From contig JAFEBQ010000051.1 in NCBI GenBank assembly GCA_018242585.1, forward strand, positions 1 through 64,000: a stretch of DNA of 64,000 nt, read 5' to 3'. The DNA comes from Planctomycetota bacterium (GTDB lineage Bacteria > Planctomycetota > Planctomycetia > Pirellulales > PNKZ01). Below are positions 5,364 to 40,200 of the stretch, piece by piece; position 1 is the stretch's first letter, and the number at the start of each line of letters is the position of its first letter. A program made the position numbers and the translations under genes. The notes below the pieces were generated by a model. The model made no database searches and was not told the origin of the DNA. It worked only from the letters and a program-made list of their open reading frames with translations.

Positions 5364-5543
5364 GGTGTCGATTTCCTCTGGGTGTGTGGGCGCAGGCTTC
5401 CGTCCCCAGTGGCATTCTAGCGATTTTTTGCTGGCATGGTGAGGATTTTCGCATTGCCAAAGCCGGGCACTCTTGGTTGATTTTGCCGGGTAAGGAAAGT
5501 AGGCTGAGCCGACGCAACACCCCTTCAGACCAGGATTTCTTGC

Positions 5544-7769
5544 ATGCGATTTCTCTGCGCGCTCGCGGCCTGGCTCGTGCCGGCGGCGCTCTTGGCGGCA
5601 CTGCCCACCGAGGGGGATGGCTTCCCCGGCTGGCAGGCGCTGCGTGTCATCCATCAACAGGGCAACCCCGACCGGATGTTCGCGGTTGACCTCGACGGCA
5701 AAGGTCGACAGGCGGTCGTCGTTGTCAACAAGCGGCAAGGTCGGCTTGATGTCTATCGCTGGACACCCCCCGCCGAACGCGAAGCGGCCAAGCCCGGCGA
5801 CCCGGCGCGGCCGAACGATTTGCCCATGGCTCCCGACTGGTCACACCACGAAGTGCCGCTCGACGAGCTGCCTTTTGATGCCGTGCCCTATGACTTGGAC
5901 GGGGACAAGCGGCCCGAGCTGCTGGTCCTGTGCGGCAATCCGATGCGCGTGCTGGCTTTCAAGCAGACCAGCCGCGATCGCTGGGAACGAAACGCCCAAT
6001 GGCAACTGCTCACCGGCACGCCCGCCGGGCATGACAAGCTGATGCTCGTCCGCCGCCCGGCGGCCGATGCGGCCGAGCTGCTGATCAGCTTTGAGCAAGG
6101 GATTCAGGTCGTGCCGCTGGCCGCGCATAGCCGGGCCACCTGGCTATCGCCGCGCGAAAGCCGCAGCCGGTTGAACTGGGGGCTGGTCGATTTGAATGGG
6201 GATGGGGCGCTCGACCTGGTCGAATGGTCGGCAACGCCCCATCAAACCATCCGCTGGTTCGAGGCGGTGGCGGGCAAGCTGCTGCCCGCCCAGGTGCTGT
6301 ACGACCACAACGTACAAGGTTTCGGCGTGTTGCCCCGGTCCAAGGGGGCGGCCGATCTGCTGTTGCTGGGTGGGACGCAAGAAGGACTGCTCCGCCGGTT
6401 CGAGCTTTCGCAAGGTGAATCGACCTCGCTCGGTCGCCACGACTCTTTACCCATGCCCGGCGGGACCAAGGCCGCCTGGTGCGGCATCAAGCTCGGCGAC
6501 CGCGCGGCCATTGTCGCCGCCGACAGTAGCCAGCCGCGCTTGCGCGTACACGACTTAACAGCCAGTGGCTGGCAAACCGAGCAGAGCTTTCCCACGCTGA
6601 GCAACGTGAAATCGCTGCTCGCGCCGACAGCTCGGCCGGGCATGCTGCTGTTGTGGATCAAGGACGGCGCCGACCTGCAACAATCGTCGTGGCAGTCGAA
6701 CCGGTTGAGCTATCCGCAACCCTTCCCGGGCGAGACCGATAGCGACGATCGCAAGATCGTGGCCCTGGAAACGGTTGGGCGGACGACCTGGTGGGCCCAG
6801 CGCGTCGGGGCGCACCTCGACTTGTACACTTGGCCCGTCGATCAGGAAAAGCCGACGCGCAAGCGGTTCAGCAACGTCGGCTCAAAGGGAACCGGTTCGT
6901 CGTCGGCCAAGATCGAAAAGGTGGTCTGGCTGGGGGGCGCGAAGATCTTGGCCCAGGTCGCCTACGCCACGACGGCCAAGTTGATGAGCGTGGACGACGA
7001 CGGCAAAGTCACCACGACCGAGCCAGCGAACCTGGCCAAGGTGGACCTGGGCGAGTTCATGCTGTTTGAAAAAGGGGGCAAGCCCGGCGAGTATCAACCG
7101 GCCCGGCTTACGGACGGCGTGTTGCAATGGCTGGGGCCGGACTTGAACCCCGTCGATCAGTTGATGTTGCCCGAGGGGCAAAAGCTGGCCGCCTTCGTGC
7201 GTCGCGCGGGCGAGACGTCGGGCTGGGCATTGGAACAAGGCGGCGCGTTCATCCACCGGCTCGAACCCGACAAGTCGGGTTTGCTGCGCGTGGCCGAGAG
7301 CTTCCGCCCGCCGCACGCCGTGCAGTTGGCCTTTGACGCGGTGCTAGGGTTGGTGCTGATCGACAGCGAGCAGATCATCCGCCTGTCGCCAGGCCGCGCC
7401 GTCGAATTGAAGCTGTTGGACAGCATCGACGGCCGCGTCGGTCGTCCCAGTGGCGTGAAAGAGGCGACGATCCATCGCATTCTGGTCGCCGATGTCGAGG
7501 GGCGCGGCGAGCCCGACGTGCTGCTGTGCGACGATCGCCGGCATCAATTGACGCTGCTGCGCCGGATGAACAAAGAGTTGAAATCGGTCGCCTCGTGGCA
7601 GGTCTTCGACGATCAGGCTTACCCCTACGGTGGCGGTCATGGCGAAGCCCGCGTCACCGAGCCGCGCGCCGTCGTCGGCTTTGATGGCGACGGCGACGGG
7701 CAGCAAGACCTGGCCCTGATCTGCCACGACCGAGTGTTGATCTATCTGGCCCGGGAGGGCGTGAAATGA
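5544..7769 (+). CDS. Secreted FG-GAP/VCBS repeat protein
   Basis: A 741-residue exported protein with an N-terminal signal peptide (about residues 1-20, hydrophobic [16 protein letters not shown]). It contains calcium-binding-type loops of the FG-GAP/VCBS kind at several places: [30 protein letters not shown] and, near the C-terminus, [10 protein letters not shown]. These repeats normally build a beta-propeller used in adhesion or ligand binding. An AGGA sits 8 bases before the ATG. Its stop overlaps the next start as ATGA, so it is translationally coupled to the protease gene that follows. It is the first gene of a three-gene secreted operon. The ligand is unknown. Confidence 0.8.
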
Positions 7770-33305: not shown

Positions 33306-34358
33306 ATGCCCACCACGCTTGCCACGCTGGCTGAATTGGTCCAAGGCACTCTTGTCGGCGATGGCGACACGCCGATCTCGGGCGCGAATCCGCAGCGCGT
33401 GGCAACGCCGGGCGAGATTACGTTGATCGATAGCAGCGAAAAGGCCCAACGCTTTGGCGCGGGTCAGGCCGCCGCCGCCGTCTGCCCGCGCGGCTTCACG
33501 CTGGCTGGCGTACCAGTGGTGCAAGTCGACGACGTCCACGCGGCGTTCACCAAAATTGTCAGCTACTTCCGCCCCGCGCGCGCGGCGGCGAAATCGGGCA
33601 TCGACCCGCGGGCGATCGTCAGCTCGACCGCGCGCTTGGCCGCGAACGTCACGGTGCATGCCGGCGCGACGATCGGCGACGATTGTGAAATCGGCTCGGG
33701 CTGCGTGATTCACTCGGGCGTGCAGATCATGGCTGGCTGCCGACTGGCCGAGAATGTCACGCTGTTTCCGAACGTCGTGCTGTACGAGAACACGCGGATC
33801 GGCGCGCGCTGCATTGTCCACGGCGGCGCGGTGCTCGGCGCGTATGGCTTTGGCTACAAGCTGGTCGATGGCCAGCACGTCTTGTCGGCCCAATTGGGCT
33901 ACGTCGAGCTGCACGACGACGTTGAAGTTGGCGCGAGCACGACGATCGATCGCGGCACCTACGGCCCCACGCTGATCGGCGCCGGCACCAAGATCGATAA
34001 CCAGGTGATGATCGCTCACAACTGCCGATTGGGTCGCGGCAACCTGATCTGCTCGCAGGTCGGCATCGCCGGCAGCACCAGCACCGGCGACTACGTGGTA
34101 ATGGCCGGGCAAGTCGGCGTGCGCGACCATGTACACATCGGCGACCAGGCCGTGCTGGGCGCCAAAGCGGGCGTCTCGAACGACGTCGGCCCGGGCATCC
34201 GGATGCTCGGCACGCCAGCCACGGTCGAACGCGATCAGAAGCTGATGATGGCCACCTATGCCAAGCTGCCCGAGTTGCGGCACCAGATCAAGCACCTGGA
34301 GGCGGCGGTCCACGCGCTTGAGAAGCTGCATCAGGAGCCCGGGCAAGCGGCGGCCTGA
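33306..34358 (+). CDS. lpxD: UDP-3-O-acyl-glucosamine N-acyltransferase
   Basis: Third step of lipid A synthesis: N-acylates UDP-3-O-acyl-glucosamine. The 350-residue protein has an N-terminal uridine-binding domain (about 1-95), then a left-handed beta-helix of hexapeptide repeats (about 100-300). Catalytic His238 lies in MIAHNCRLG and the acyl-chain block GAYGFGY is present. The C-terminal helix is about 310-345. AAGGA lies 9 bases before the ATG. The lpxI gene follows after 13 bases, so the two are probably one transcription unit. Confidence 0.95.
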   Translation: MPTTLATLAELVQGTLVGDGDTPISGANPQRVATPGEITLIDSSEKAQRFGAGQAAAAVCPRGFTLAGVPVVQVDDVHAAFTKIVSYFRPARAAAKSGIDPRAIVSSTARLAANVTVHAGATIGDDCEIGSGCVIHSGVQIMAGCRLAENVTLFPNVVLYENTRIGARCIVHGGAVLGAYGFGYKLVDGQHVLSAQLGYVELHDDVEVGASTTIDRGTYGPTLIGAGTKIDNQVMIAHNCRLGRGNLICSQVGIAGSTSTGDYVVMAGQVGVRDHVHIGDQAVLGAKAGVSNDVGPGIRMLGTPATVERDQKLMMATYAKLPELRHQIKHLEAAVHALEKLHQEPGQAAA

Positions 34359-34371
34359 ACCGCGCGTCGGC

Positions 34372-35358
34372 ATGCTCGGTCGCAAGCCGCGCGTCGCGCC
34401 ACTGGAATCCATCGAACGACGACGGCAGATCATGCTTGGCGCCCTGGCATCACCGACCGCTCGCACGACGCCCCAGGCCAGGCCGCGCGTCGGCCTGGTG
34501 GCGGGCTGGGGGCGCTATCCGATTCTGGTGGCCGAGTCGCTGGGCCGAGCCGGGTTCGACGTATTTTGCCTGGGGATCAAGGAACATGCCGATCCGGCGC
34601 TGGCCACGCGATGCGCCAGCTTTGAATGGGTCGGCGTGGCGAAGGTGGGCCGGATGGTTCGCCACTTCCAACGGCACGATGTCCGCGACGTGACGCTGGC
34701 CGGCAAGATTCACAAATCGCGACTGTTCAACCGCTGGGCATTGGCGCAACTGATGCCCGATTGGCGAACGCTGCGGGTGTTTTGTCAGCATTTCATCTTT
34801 GCCACCAAGGACCGGCAAGACGACACGCTGCTGTTGGCGGTGGTCAATGATTTTGCCTCGGCCGGGCTGACGGTGGCGCCGGCCACGAACTTTGCTCCGG
34901 AGTTGCTCGTGAAATTCCGTCAACTGACCCGCCGCGCTCCCAACCAGGCCGAGCGCCGCGACGCGATCTTCGGCTGGCAGGCGGCCAAGCAACTGGGGGG
35001 CCTCGACATCGGCCAAAGCGTGGTCATCAAGAGCCAGGTCGCGATTGCCGTCGAGGCCATCGAAGGGACCGACCGTTGCATCGAACGGGCCGGCGCGCTC
35101 TGCCGGCAGGGGCACTTCACGGTGGTGAAGGTCGCCAAGCCGCAACAAGACATGCGGTTCGATGTGCCGACCATCGGGCTGGGGACGTTGCAGACGATGG
35201 TGCAAGCCGGCGGCAGTTGTCTGGCGATCGAGGCCGGTCGCACGATCGTGCTCGACGAAATGGAAGTGGTCGAGTTCGCCGACCAGCACGGCATTTCCAT
35301 CGTGGCGCTCGACGCCCAGGGGAACTTCCCGACCGACGCCACGCCCGCCGCGGCGTGA
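34372..35358 (+). CDS. lpxI: UDP-2,3-diacylglucosamine pyrophosphatase LpxI
   Basis: Cuts UDP-2,3-diacylglucosamine to lipid X; it is the LpxI type, not the LpxH metallophosphatase. The core (about residues 38-310 from this start) shows VGLVAGWGRYP, the AGKIHKS block and QDMRFDVPTIGLGTLQTM with the AGGSCLAIEAG stretch typical of DUF1009/LpxI. Starts at 34372 or 34432 are both possible with no clear ribosome site; 34372 is used as it is closest to the lpxD stop, giving 328 residues. The lpxD neighbour supports the assignment. Confidence 0.85.
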   Translation: MLGRKPRVAPLESIERRRQIMLGALASPTARTTPQARPRVGLVAGWGRYPILVAESLGRAGFDVFCLGIKEHADPALATRCASFEWVGVAKVGRMVRHFQRHDVRDVTLAGKIHKSRLFNRWALAQLMPDWRTLRVFCQHFIFATKDRQDDTLLLAVVNDFASAGLTVAPATNFAPELLVKFRQLTRRAPNQAERRDAIFGWQAAKQLGGLDIGQSVVIKSQVAIAVEAIEGTDRCIERAGALCRQGHFTVVKVAKPQQDMRFDVPTIGLGTLQTMVQAGGSCLAIEAGRTIVLDEMEVVEFADQHGISIVALDAQGNFPTDATPAAA

Positions 35359-35487: not shown

Positions 35488-35520
35488 GAGTGCTTCACTC
35501 AATCGTTGGGCAGGGCAAAC

Positions 35521-38500
35521 ATGTCATCCCCTCTCGAATCGCTGGTCAAGCAACTGACCGATTCGAGCATCATTGCGCGCGGCAAGCTCGAAAACTTCAT
35601 CCCGCCCAAGGCCCAGCCCAAGGACGCCGACGAACTGATCGCCCAGTTGGTCAAGTCCGGCGACCTCACCCAGTTCCAAGCCACCCAGATCAAAGCCGGC
35701 AAGGCCAAGGCATTGATCCTGGGCAACTACACGATTCTCGATCGGATCGGCGCCGGCGGGATGGGGCAGGTGTTCAAGGCCATCCATCGCCGGATGGAGC
35801 GCCTGGTGGCGATCAAGATGTTGCCGCCCGCCATGACCAAAGACGCGGCCGCGCTCGCTCGCTTTCAACGCGAGGTCAAAGCCGCGGCCAAGTTGCGCCA
35901 CACGAACATCGTGGCCGCCGATGACGCCGACGAAGCGAATGGCGTCCACTTCCTGGTCATGGAATACATCGATGGCCGCGACTTGTCGGCCACGGTCAAA
36001 AAGGACGGCCCGCTGCCAGTCGCGAAGGCGGTCAACTACGTCCTGCAAGCGGCGCGCGGCCTGGAGTTTGCCCACGGCGAAGGAGTGATCCACCGCGACA
36101 TCAAGCCGGCGAACTTGCTGCTCGATAAGAAAGGGTCGGTCAAGATTCTCGACATGGGCCTGGCCCGCATCGAGCAACCTGGTGGAGTCCAGGCCGAATT
36201 GACCGGCACCGGCGCCATCATGGGAACGGTCGATTACATGGCCCCCGAGCAAGGCATGAGCACCAAGCATGCCGACGCGCGGGCCGATATTTACAGCCTG
36301 GGCTGCTCGCTTTACTACCTGCTCGTGGGCAAGGCGATGTACGGCGGCGAGACGGTGGCGGCAAAACTCGTGGCCCATCATACGCACCCAATCCCCGACC
36401 TGGGCGAAGGTCGCCCCGACATTCCCGAGCAGCTCGAAACCGTCTTCAAGAAGATGGTGACCAAGCGGATCGAGGATCGCTACCAGACGATGACTGAAGT
36501 GATCGCCGACCTGGAGCGGTGCCAGTCAGCGGTCCAGGAGGCCGGTTCGAGCGCGACGAGCGTTTTCAGCGCGTCCAGCACCAACCAGGCTTCGGATATG
36601 TCGATCTTGATGCAGCAAGGCGGGCTGCGTTCGATCTACGGCGAAGAATCGCCCCAAGCATTTCCGGTCGCAACACCACCTAAAAGCAAGGCCACGCCAA
36701 AAGCATCAACGGGTGGAACGGGGAATAAGAACCGGGGTCTGTTGATTGGCGCTGGCGCCGCTGGGTTCTTGTGCCTGGCTCTGGGCGTGTGGTTCATCTT
36801 CAAGGACAAGAGCGGCAAGGAAGTCGCTCGGGTCGAGCTGCCCGCTGGCGGTTCGGTGGAAGTGAAGACGGACAAACCAAAGGCCGACGAAGCTGACATG
36901 CCGTCAACATTTCCGCTTGGCGGCGGGCAAAGGATCGCCACCTACAACACACCCGCCTTTAAGAATTGGGTGGCCGTCACGTCCACTCTTTCCCCCGAGA
37001 AGCAAATCGCCGCCGTCAGCAAGAAGCTGATGGAGTTGAATCCTGGGTTCGACGGAAAGTTGGCGCATTGGGACGGGAAAGGCCCGCCCAAGATCGAGAA
37101 TGGCGTGGTCACGGGGTTAGGATTCAATGCTGTCGACGTGACCGATATTTCGCCAGTGCGCGCGTTGATGGGACTGAAGTTTCTGAAATGTTCTGGCAAC
37201 TACGTGGACAAGAGTAAGCTTTCCGATCTTTCGCCTCTCGCGGGCATGCCTTTGACGAATCTGTCTTGCGACAACACGCAGGTCTCCGACCTGTCACCGC
37301 TGCGAGGCATGAAACTGACGATTCTGTATTGCTTCCGCACACGAGTATCAGACCTATCACCACTCGAAAAGATGCCTCTGACGACCGTGTCGATTCACGA
37401 AACATTGGTGTCGGATCTTTCGCCTCTGGAAAGCTGCGGCAGCCTGAAATCCCTGCTGGTCAACGACACCAATGTCACCGCCGCCCAGGTGGCCGCTCTG
37501 CAAAAGGCTTTACCCAATTGCAAGATCGAGTGGGACGATCCAGCGAAGGCGATCAAGAAGCTCGCCTACCTCGACCCAGCGTTCCAGAAGTGGGTCGCTG
37601 AGACGCAGAAGCTGCCGTCCGACAAGCAGATTGAAGCGGTCAGCAAGAAGCTGACGGAGTTGAACCCTGGCTTCGATGGAATTGTAACCGGATTCGACGG
37701 GAAAGGCCCACCGAAAATCGAAGGCACTACCGTCACGGAATTAGGATTGTTCGTCAATAACGTGATGGACCTGTCGCCGGTGCGAGCCTTAACAACCTTG
37801 AAAGCTTTCAGTATTAAGTCGTCTAAACTAACGCCGGCAAATTTGACCGACATCACACCGCTGGCGGGAATGCAACTTAGCAACGTGATGATCTACAGCA
37901 CGCCGGTATCGGACCTGACCCCGCTTCGAGGAATGCCCTTGAAGAGACTGCATATCGGGTATACGAAAGTCTCTGACCTCTCGCCCATGCAGGGGATGCA
38001 ATTGGACTATATCTCAGTCCTAATGACACACGTCTCTGACCTGTCGCCACTGTCTGGAATGCCTTTGCACACCGTTTGGTGCGATCGTTCGCAGGTAACC
38101 GACCTGTCGCCATTGGAACAATGCAAGAACCTGACCTATGTGAATGCCAAAGAACTGAGAATCACCGCCGCCCAAGTCGCATCTCTGCAAAAAGCCCTGC
38201 CCAACTGCAAGATCGATTGGGATGGTGCGGCGACATCGGCCAAGCCCAAGCTCGCCTATCTCGACCCTGCCTTCCAGCAGTGGGTGTCCGATACGCAAAA
38301 GCTCCCGGCGGATAAGCAGATCGAAGCGGTCAGCAAAAAGCTGACGGAGTTGAACCCTGGGTTTGATGGGAAGTTGACGCCCACGATCAAGAACGGAGTG
38401 GTCACAAACATGACGGTCCTCACGGACAATGTAACCGACATTTCGCCGGTGAGGGCGTTAAAGGACCTCGACTATCTCGATTGCTCCGGAAGTGACTCCA

Positions 38501-40200
38501 ATTCTCGCAGCAATGGCAAACTTGTCGATTTGTCCCCCTTGGCAGAAATGTCGCTCACTCGTTTGTCGGTCAGCGGAACGCAAGTGACCGACCTTTCTCC
38601 GTTAAAAACACTTCCGCTGAACGAACTGAATTGCGGCACATCGCCACTAGTCGACCTCTCGCCGCTTCGTGGCACGAAGATCATGAAGCTGGCGTGTCCC
38701 AATACCAAGATCGACGATCTTTCGCCGTTGCAGGGGATGCCGCTGGTCAGTCTTCACGTGCCAAATTGCAGATATATCGATTTGTCTCCCTTGGCGGGAC
38801 TACCATTGAAGTCAATCGTCTGCGGCGGCCGTGAATCAAAGGTTACGAATATTTCCCCGCTAGCATCCTGCAAGGAATTGCAGCAGGTAGGTATTTATGG
38901 CGTAAAGGTCACCCCCGCTCAGGTCGCCGCCCTGCAAAAGGCCCTGCCCAATTGCAAAATCGATTGGGATGATCCGGCGAAGGCGACGACCAAGAAGCTC
39001 GCCTACCTCGACCCAGCCTTCCAAAAGTGGGTTGCCGAGACGCAAAAGCTCCCCGCCGACAAGCAGATCGAAGCGGTGCGCCGGAAGCTGGTGGAGTTGA
39101 ACCCCGGTTTCGACGGCAAAGTTAAGGATGTCAACATTTCGAACTTGCCCGACTCTCAAGAGCAGGTCGTCAAGGGGCTTGGAATTGTTACGGACGACGT
39201 GACCGATATTTCGCCGCTGAGGGTCTTGACGCATCTCTCGATCCTTTCGTGCCGCGGCAGCAAGCCGGGCGCTGGTCGATTGTCCGACCTATCGCCGCTC
39301 GAAGGCCTGAACCTGAATCACATCGGCTTCTCTCCAGGAATCTGCACCACTGGGATCGACGTACTGCGGCGGATGAAGAGCCTTAACACGGTTGGCATTG
39401 GCGACAAGTTCGAGCAAGTTAAGGCCGCCGATTTTTGGAAGCGTTACGACGCGGGCGAGTTCGCCAAACCTGCCATCGCCAAGAAGCTCGCCTACCTCGA
39501 CCCCGCCTTCCAGCAGTGGGTCACTGATACGCAAAAGCTCTCGGCTGAGCAGCAGATCGAAGCGGTCAGCAAGAAGCTGGCGGAGTTGAATCCGGGGTTC
39601 GATGGAAGGATCACGGGGTGGGACGAGGGAACTGAGGCGGCGATCAAGAATGGTGTGGTCACGGAACTTGCATTTGCCACTGACAACGTGGAGGACATTT
39701 CCCCAGTGCGAGCGTTAGTGGGGTTGAGGAAAATGGGATGCGATGGCAGCGTTAGGGGGAAAGGCAAGTTGACTGATTTGTCGCCGCTTCAAGGGATGAA
39801 ACTGTCAAGTCTACGATTCGGAAACACGCAAGTCACCAACTTGTCCCCGCTGCGAGGGATGCCACTAACGAGCGTAGGATGCCCCAATACGCCGGTGTCC
39901 GACTTATCCGTTCTGGAAGGGATGAAGTTGACCTTTTTTTATTGCCACTACACACAGGTGTCCGACCTGTCGCCGCTCCAAGGGATGCCACTGACGCAAA
40001 TGCAATGCGATGGCACACAAGTTTCCAATCTGTCGCCGTTAGAGAATTGCAAATCCTTGGTTTTCCTGAACACCAGAAACACCAAAGTCACCGCAACACA
40101 GATCACCGCGCTGCAAAAGGCCTTGCCCAATTGCAAGATCGAATGGGATGATCCGGCCAAGGCGGCGACATCTCAGCCCCAGCCAGCCGCGGCCAAATAG
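35521..40200 (+). CDS. Ser/Thr protein kinase with five LRR-like modules
   Basis: A 1559-residue membrane-bound kinase. Residues 70-340 form a Hanks-type kinase: glycine loop [10 protein letters not shown], Lys99 (VAIKML), HRD at 191-193 ([10 protein letters not shown]), D211 in ILDMGLA (DMG in place of DFG) and MAPEQ. A low-complexity linker and one transmembrane helix (about 407-427) follow. The extracellular part has five modules, each opening with a DPAFQ-W ... LNPGFDG header and mostly carrying DLSPL-type leucine-rich repeats (see the repeat feature). The ATG at 35521 is chosen over a TTG at 35506. A receptor kinase is likely; the ligand is unknown. Repetition on this scale invites assembly error, though each copy is distinct enough to read. 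Confidence 0.93.
36943..40173 (+). repeat. Five tandem LRR-like modules inside the kinase gene
   Basis: Modules begin at about 36943, 37561, 38251, 38998 and 39487 and are about 206, 230, 249, 163 and 229 residues long. Each starts with a stretch like [25 protein letters not shown] and ELNPGFDG. Most end with [21 protein letters not shown]. Between are units like [20 protein letters not shown] and [12 protein letters not shown] at about 22-residue spacing. The fourth lacks the LRR middle and ends differently ([16 protein letters not shown]), so it looks partly decayed. Confidence 0.85.

Follow-up and report, generated by a model that had tools for sequence, protein, structure and literature searches.

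A gene in the 64,000-nucleotide stretch of DNA analysed here (the window) quite probably encodes a single-pass receptor-like Ser/Thr kinase of planctomycetes whose ectodomain, periplasmic or outer, is built from cassettes and comprises five LRR solenoids. The initial annotation had proposed a large receptor-like kinase with a repeated LRR ectodomain, and domain content, hydropathy topology, predicted folds and relatives all back this proposal. The reading frame runs without interruption from 35506 to 40200 on the forward strand, and the ATG at 35521 is the likely start codon, giving a protein of 1559 aa (Table 1).

Table 1. Features of the kinase gene, with positions in the window and the corresponding residues of the protein.
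Feature	Position	Strand	Residues	Basis
Whole gene, receptor-like Ser/Thr kinase, 1559 aa	35521..40200	+		Open reading frame
Hanks-type kinase domain, all catalytic motifs, DMG variant of DFG	35728..36495	+	70-325	Pfam PF00069 (Pkinase) E 3.6e-49; motifs
Single transmembrane helix	36736..36801	+	406-427	Hydropathy
Module 1, membrane-proximal class, header YNTPAFKNW, tail A	36943..37566	+	475-682	Pairwise alignment, tail typing, header tree
Module 2, header YLDPAFQKW, tail A	37567..38256	+	683-912	Pairwise alignment, tail typing
Module 3, header YLDPAFQQW, tail A, longest LRR stretch	38257..39003	+	913-1161	Pairwise alignment, tail typing
Module 4, fewest LRRs, tail B	39004..39492	+	1162-1324	Pairwise alignment, tail typing, tail-B alignment; fold pLDDT 89
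Module 5, header YLDPAFQQW, tail A	39493..40197	+	1325-1559	Pairwise alignment, tail typing; fold pLDDT 97.8

The kinase domain retains its catalytic motifs, including the glycine loop, the conserved Lys and Asp residues and APEQ. The substitution of DMG for DFG, already read from the sequence in the initial annotation, is ordinary in this genome: among the 24 of 30 kinase loci taken from it in which the triad is readable, 14 have DMG, five DFG, four DLG and one DYG, and DMG is found in all sister kinases bearing the same modules. Since DMG is the local norm, it gives no reason to suspect an inactive enzyme, and by its motifs the kinase of the 1559-aa protein is apparently active. The single transmembrane helix, likewise proposed before, corresponds to the sole stretch exceeding 1.2 on the Kyte-Doolittle scale, a hydrophobic helix of 22 residues C-terminal to the kinase. 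Hydropathy and analogy with a family analysis of planctomycete kinases (PMC11032199) would thus place the N-terminal kinase in the cytoplasm and the C-terminal ectodomain in the periplasm or outside the cell.

We further note that lpxD and lpxI lie directly upstream of the kinase gene on the same strand (window 33306-35358), and that no promoter or terminator pattern is found upstream of the kinase gene. LpxI is present in all seven relatives searched and has no kinase ORF beside it in the flanks read, so these neighbours are probably uninformative on function.

The ectodomain (residues 475-1559) is made up of five modules that all align with one another in pairwise BLASTP at E values of 1e-31 to 1e-86, far beyond chance. 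Each follows the same plan of a 38-aa header, a linker, several 21-residue LRRs with the consensus DLSPLxGMPLTxLxCxxTxVS, and a tail. The shared header pattern is DPAFQxW..LNPGFDG, and one of the two tail types, tail B, has the pattern EFWKxYDAGEF. A header DPAFQ-W had been ascribed to all five modules; this holds for modules 2, 3 and 5, while module 1 has the divergent form given in Table 1 and belongs to a separate class. Header and linker together (102 aa) match no Pfam family even at an E value of 1, and show convincing sequence matches to solved structures only in their LRR-like second half.

A draft genome of 56 contigs invites the suspicion that misassembly of a repeat created or collapsed modules. 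The longest exact run of DNA common to any two modules is 23 nt, which makes a collapsed or expanded assembly repeat unlikely. In the linker and LRR parts, codon identity at conserved amino acids is 0.41-0.48 against a saturation expectation of 0.37-0.40, and such near-saturated synonymous codons, together with the short exact runs, indicate that the modules are old, distinct copies. Comparable multi-module kinases also occur in independent assemblies, and we regard an assembly artefact as almost certainly not the source of the repeats.

Structure prediction of the ectodomain was carried out module by module and gave confident folds for the two modules 5 and 4. The model of module 5 (AlphaFold2, 34 sequences; pLDDT 97.8, pTM 0.92) has helices at residues 4-14 and 18-32, one strand per LRR, and a C-terminal helix and strand. 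Its closest folds are the Roco LRR of Chlorobaculum tepidum (Z 20.7) and internalins B and A (Z about 19), in structural alignments that begin at about residue 10-17 of the model, and Foldseek returns matches at E 8e-9. Profile matches to 5il7 and 2omx (E <1e-66) identify the repeats as 21-22-residue LRRs of the SDS22/internalin type. Module 4 finds only weak internalin matches in Foldseek (best E 0.01), as expected for a module with so few repeats. The ectodomain is thus predicted to be a string of five LRR solenoids that are capped separately. Each consists of a two-helix N-cap contributed by the header, LRRs of the internalin/SDS22 type and one of two C-caps.

Analysis of conservation within 460 LRR units of the family indicates a constant frame, with entropy minima of 0.4-0.5 bits at D1, L2, P4, L5 and L10, and maxima of 3.3-4.0 bits at positions 12, 14, 16, 17 and 19. 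In module 5 the predicted strand (residues 106-108) falls on unit positions 12-14. LRRs that bind ligands usually show such a constant frame beside a variable strand face. The variable concave face would fit ligand binding, although relaxed constraint could also be a source of its variability. We infer that the concave faces of the solenoids probably bind one or more ligands, whether protein, peptide or glycan, in the periplasm or beyond it, and that such binding would alter, across the membrane, the dimerisation or association, conformation or activity of the kinase domains. The number and type of cassettes would then set the specificity and reach of the receptor.

The module is found well beyond this gene, as a check suggested in the initial annotation had asked. 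It is matched in 11 of 40 genomes in a sample of relatives, in 10 of 294 genomes sampled evenly across the phylum, and at 73 loci among about 85,000 species genomes, which belong mostly to planctomycetes, with some Verrucomicrobia and Lentisphaerae. Within its own genome, seven kinase genes carry the module, the six paralogues sharing the layout of the window gene. Pfam scans of five of these sister kinases identified FGE-sulfatase, NPCBM, PD40 with C-type lectin, and 3-keto-disaccharide hydrolase as extra domains in one kinase each, and LRRs only in the fifth. Several sister kinases pair cassettes of the module family with further domains of periplasmic type.

Taking the 73-locus set together with the own genome, 85 ORFs bear modules, of which 60 contain a kinase motif, seven run off a contig end and 18 show no motif by pattern; a few of these 18 are chimeric or are kinases whose motif diverges. 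Proteins that carry these LRR modules and an apparent signal peptide but lack a kinase are encoded at L141 (1730-3508) and at L082, L092, L095, L104, L110, L119 and L120; by their sequences they would be kinase-free receptor-like proteins. The signal peptides on several of these ORFs support an extracytoplasmic place for the module. In a further ORF, on a Planctomicrobium MAG contig (L077 7349-8981, CAMAVF010000048.1), the N-lobe of a kinase is joined straight to an LRR tail; the remaining kinase and the transmembrane helix are missing, as would follow from a deletion or a chimera.

The existence of relatives that combine the modules with apparent signal peptides and have no kinase, along with the adhesive role of internalin-type LRRs in solved structures, lends some weight to a scaffold or adhesin, in which the LRR string would anchor the cell surface, matrix or a partner protein and control of the kinase by a ligand would be secondary or absent. 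This we consider unlikely, given the kinase motif in 60 of the 85 module-bearing ORFs and the intact catalytic motifs of the window gene, and a receptor-like kinase remains the preferred reading.

The origin of the modules was approached through a tree of 38 headers, most forks of which are unresolved since the header is a short sequence. In five of this genome's kinases (the window gene, two on C12, and one each on C3 and C10), the first modules nevertheless cluster together with support of 98/95. A topology that unites the five window modules in one clade is rejected (AU p 0.006), since module 1 falls among membrane-proximal modules from other kinases, and one tandem origin for all five is rejected with it. 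A clade of modules 2-5 is not rejected (AU p 0.45). The initial proposal that the modules arose by tandem duplication thus fails for the full set of five and can stand for modules 2-5, which may represent a tandem expansion. These patterns suggest that the membrane-proximal class, to which module 1 belongs, was inherited with the kinase architecture, and that the growth of the distal class took place in part within this gene, with exchange between sister genes as a possible second source.

Header DNA is 69-87% identical among the window modules, and the 38-codon headers (for example, window 39493-39606) show synonymous identity above expectation both within and between genes. Within genomes the synonymous excess is 0.14-0.16 in the header versus 0.02-0.07 in the linker; between genomes the header excess is 0.08, about half of the within-genome value. 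Since the excess is partly present between genomes, codon constraint may explain it, and gene conversion need not be the sole cause of the similarity of header DNA, much of the excess being common to different genomes. A bolder scheme would make the header and the two tails constant joints of exchangeable cassettes, with LRR blades of variable concave face being swapped, lengthened and re-capped between the kinases of one genome. The intermixing of modules from different genes in the tree and the header excess within genomes speak for this scheme, to which we nevertheless give a distinctly low probability; if true, cassette exchange would diversify a bacterial receptor repertoire by a logic like that of lamprey VLRs or plant receptor families.

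With 163 aa, module 4 is the shortest of the five, and its middle LRRs are missing, as the initial annotation had recognized; the further suggestion that it is a decaying copy is contradicted by several features. Its tail B (..EFWK..) is canonical, closing 56 modules among the sequence-search relatives and the own genome, compared with 33 closed by tail A, and a sister kinase of this genome has a second module that ends in AAEFWKKYDAGEF. Alignment with 26 tail-B modules shows that in module 4 the header and first LRRs pass straight into the tail, the middle LRRs being absent. The predicted fold is closed, with both caps present (pLDDT 89, pTM 0.83). Relative to modules 2, 3 and 5, its header has a pn of 0.06-0.11 at a ps of 0.50-0.58, and such low pn at high ps indicates purifying selection. 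We find none of the marks of a pseudogene in module 4, namely stops, frameshifts, relaxed constraint or a missing cap. Module 4 thus looks like a short yet complete cassette with an alternative C-cap, and decay is rejected on the strength of tail B, the selection on its header, the tail-B alignment and the confident predicted fold.

A truncated module of another kind lies on contig C12 near 366000 (L024 5475-5608), where the remnant of a third-module header, about 35 aa followed by TAA, is placed after the stop codon of a sister kinase. A short tandem repeat of the GGGACTAGGGACTAG type stands before this remnant (L024 about 5500-5608). Judged by its sequence, it does look decayed, unlike module 4.

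Taken together, these results leave little room for an ectodomain that arose within this gene by duplication of one ancestral module into five tandem copies, the fourth of them decaying. Such an origin would accommodate the DNA identity of the headers, the tolerated clade of modules 2-5 and the missing middle LRRs of module 4, but it conflicts with the rejection of the five-module clade and with the canonical tail, open frame, constrained header and confident predicted fold of module 4, and we judge it highly unlikely.

Among known systems, the protein is closest to the single-spanning planctomycete Ser/Thr kinases, in which a cytoplasmic kinase is commonly partnered with periplasmic WD40, TPR, sulfatase-modifying or DUF1080 domains (PMC11032199). 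It shares with the kinases described there an intact N-terminal Pkinase domain (PF00069), one transmembrane helix after it and C-terminal repeat or other domains predicted to lie outside, and two of the described partners, FGE-sulfatase and DUF1080 (the 3-keto-disaccharide hydrolase), recur in sister kinases of its own genome. The account differs in that its main text contains no mention of LRR or leucine, and we found no description of the header or of planctomycete LRR kinases in the literature searched. The nearest named NCBIfam kinase model is that of the PASTA kinases (PknB/Stk1), yet the score of 305.5 bits falls below the cut-off of 450 and Pfam and NCBIfam detect no PASTA repeats in the 1559-aa protein, which thus falls outside this group. 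The likeliest reading is a periplasmic receptor kinase of an established planctomycete type, fitted with a capped-LRR cassette that itself has no Pfam entry.

The solenoids resemble the internalin/SDS22-type LRRs of Listeria InlA and InlB and of the C. tepidum Roco protein in their 21-residue consensus, helical N-cap and overall fold (Z about 19-21). They differ from internalins in that several separately capped solenoids are present in one chain and are joined to a kinase; Pfam and NCBIfam detect no internalin Ig-like domain or wall anchor, and the N-terminal kinase stands in their place, setting the protein apart from the internalin family.

To our knowledge, almost none of the inputs of the large sets of membrane Ser/Thr kinases in planctomycetes are known, and the recurrent, separately capped LRR cassette offers an expressible, putative ligand-binding unit for finding them. 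With plant LRR receptor kinases the protein shares an LRR ectodomain, a single transmembrane helix and a cytoplasmic kinase. Unlike the plant proteins, where an N-terminal LRR region is followed by the membrane helix and a C-terminal kinase, the window protein carries its kinase at the N-terminus and its LRRs at the C-terminus, belongs to another LRR subtype and has no signal peptide. Because the order of parts is reversed, a plant-like mode of working would hold at most by analogy and not by homology of architecture. These comparisons suggest that receptor kinases with LRR ectodomains have also been built in bacteria, with their parts in the order opposite to that of plants.
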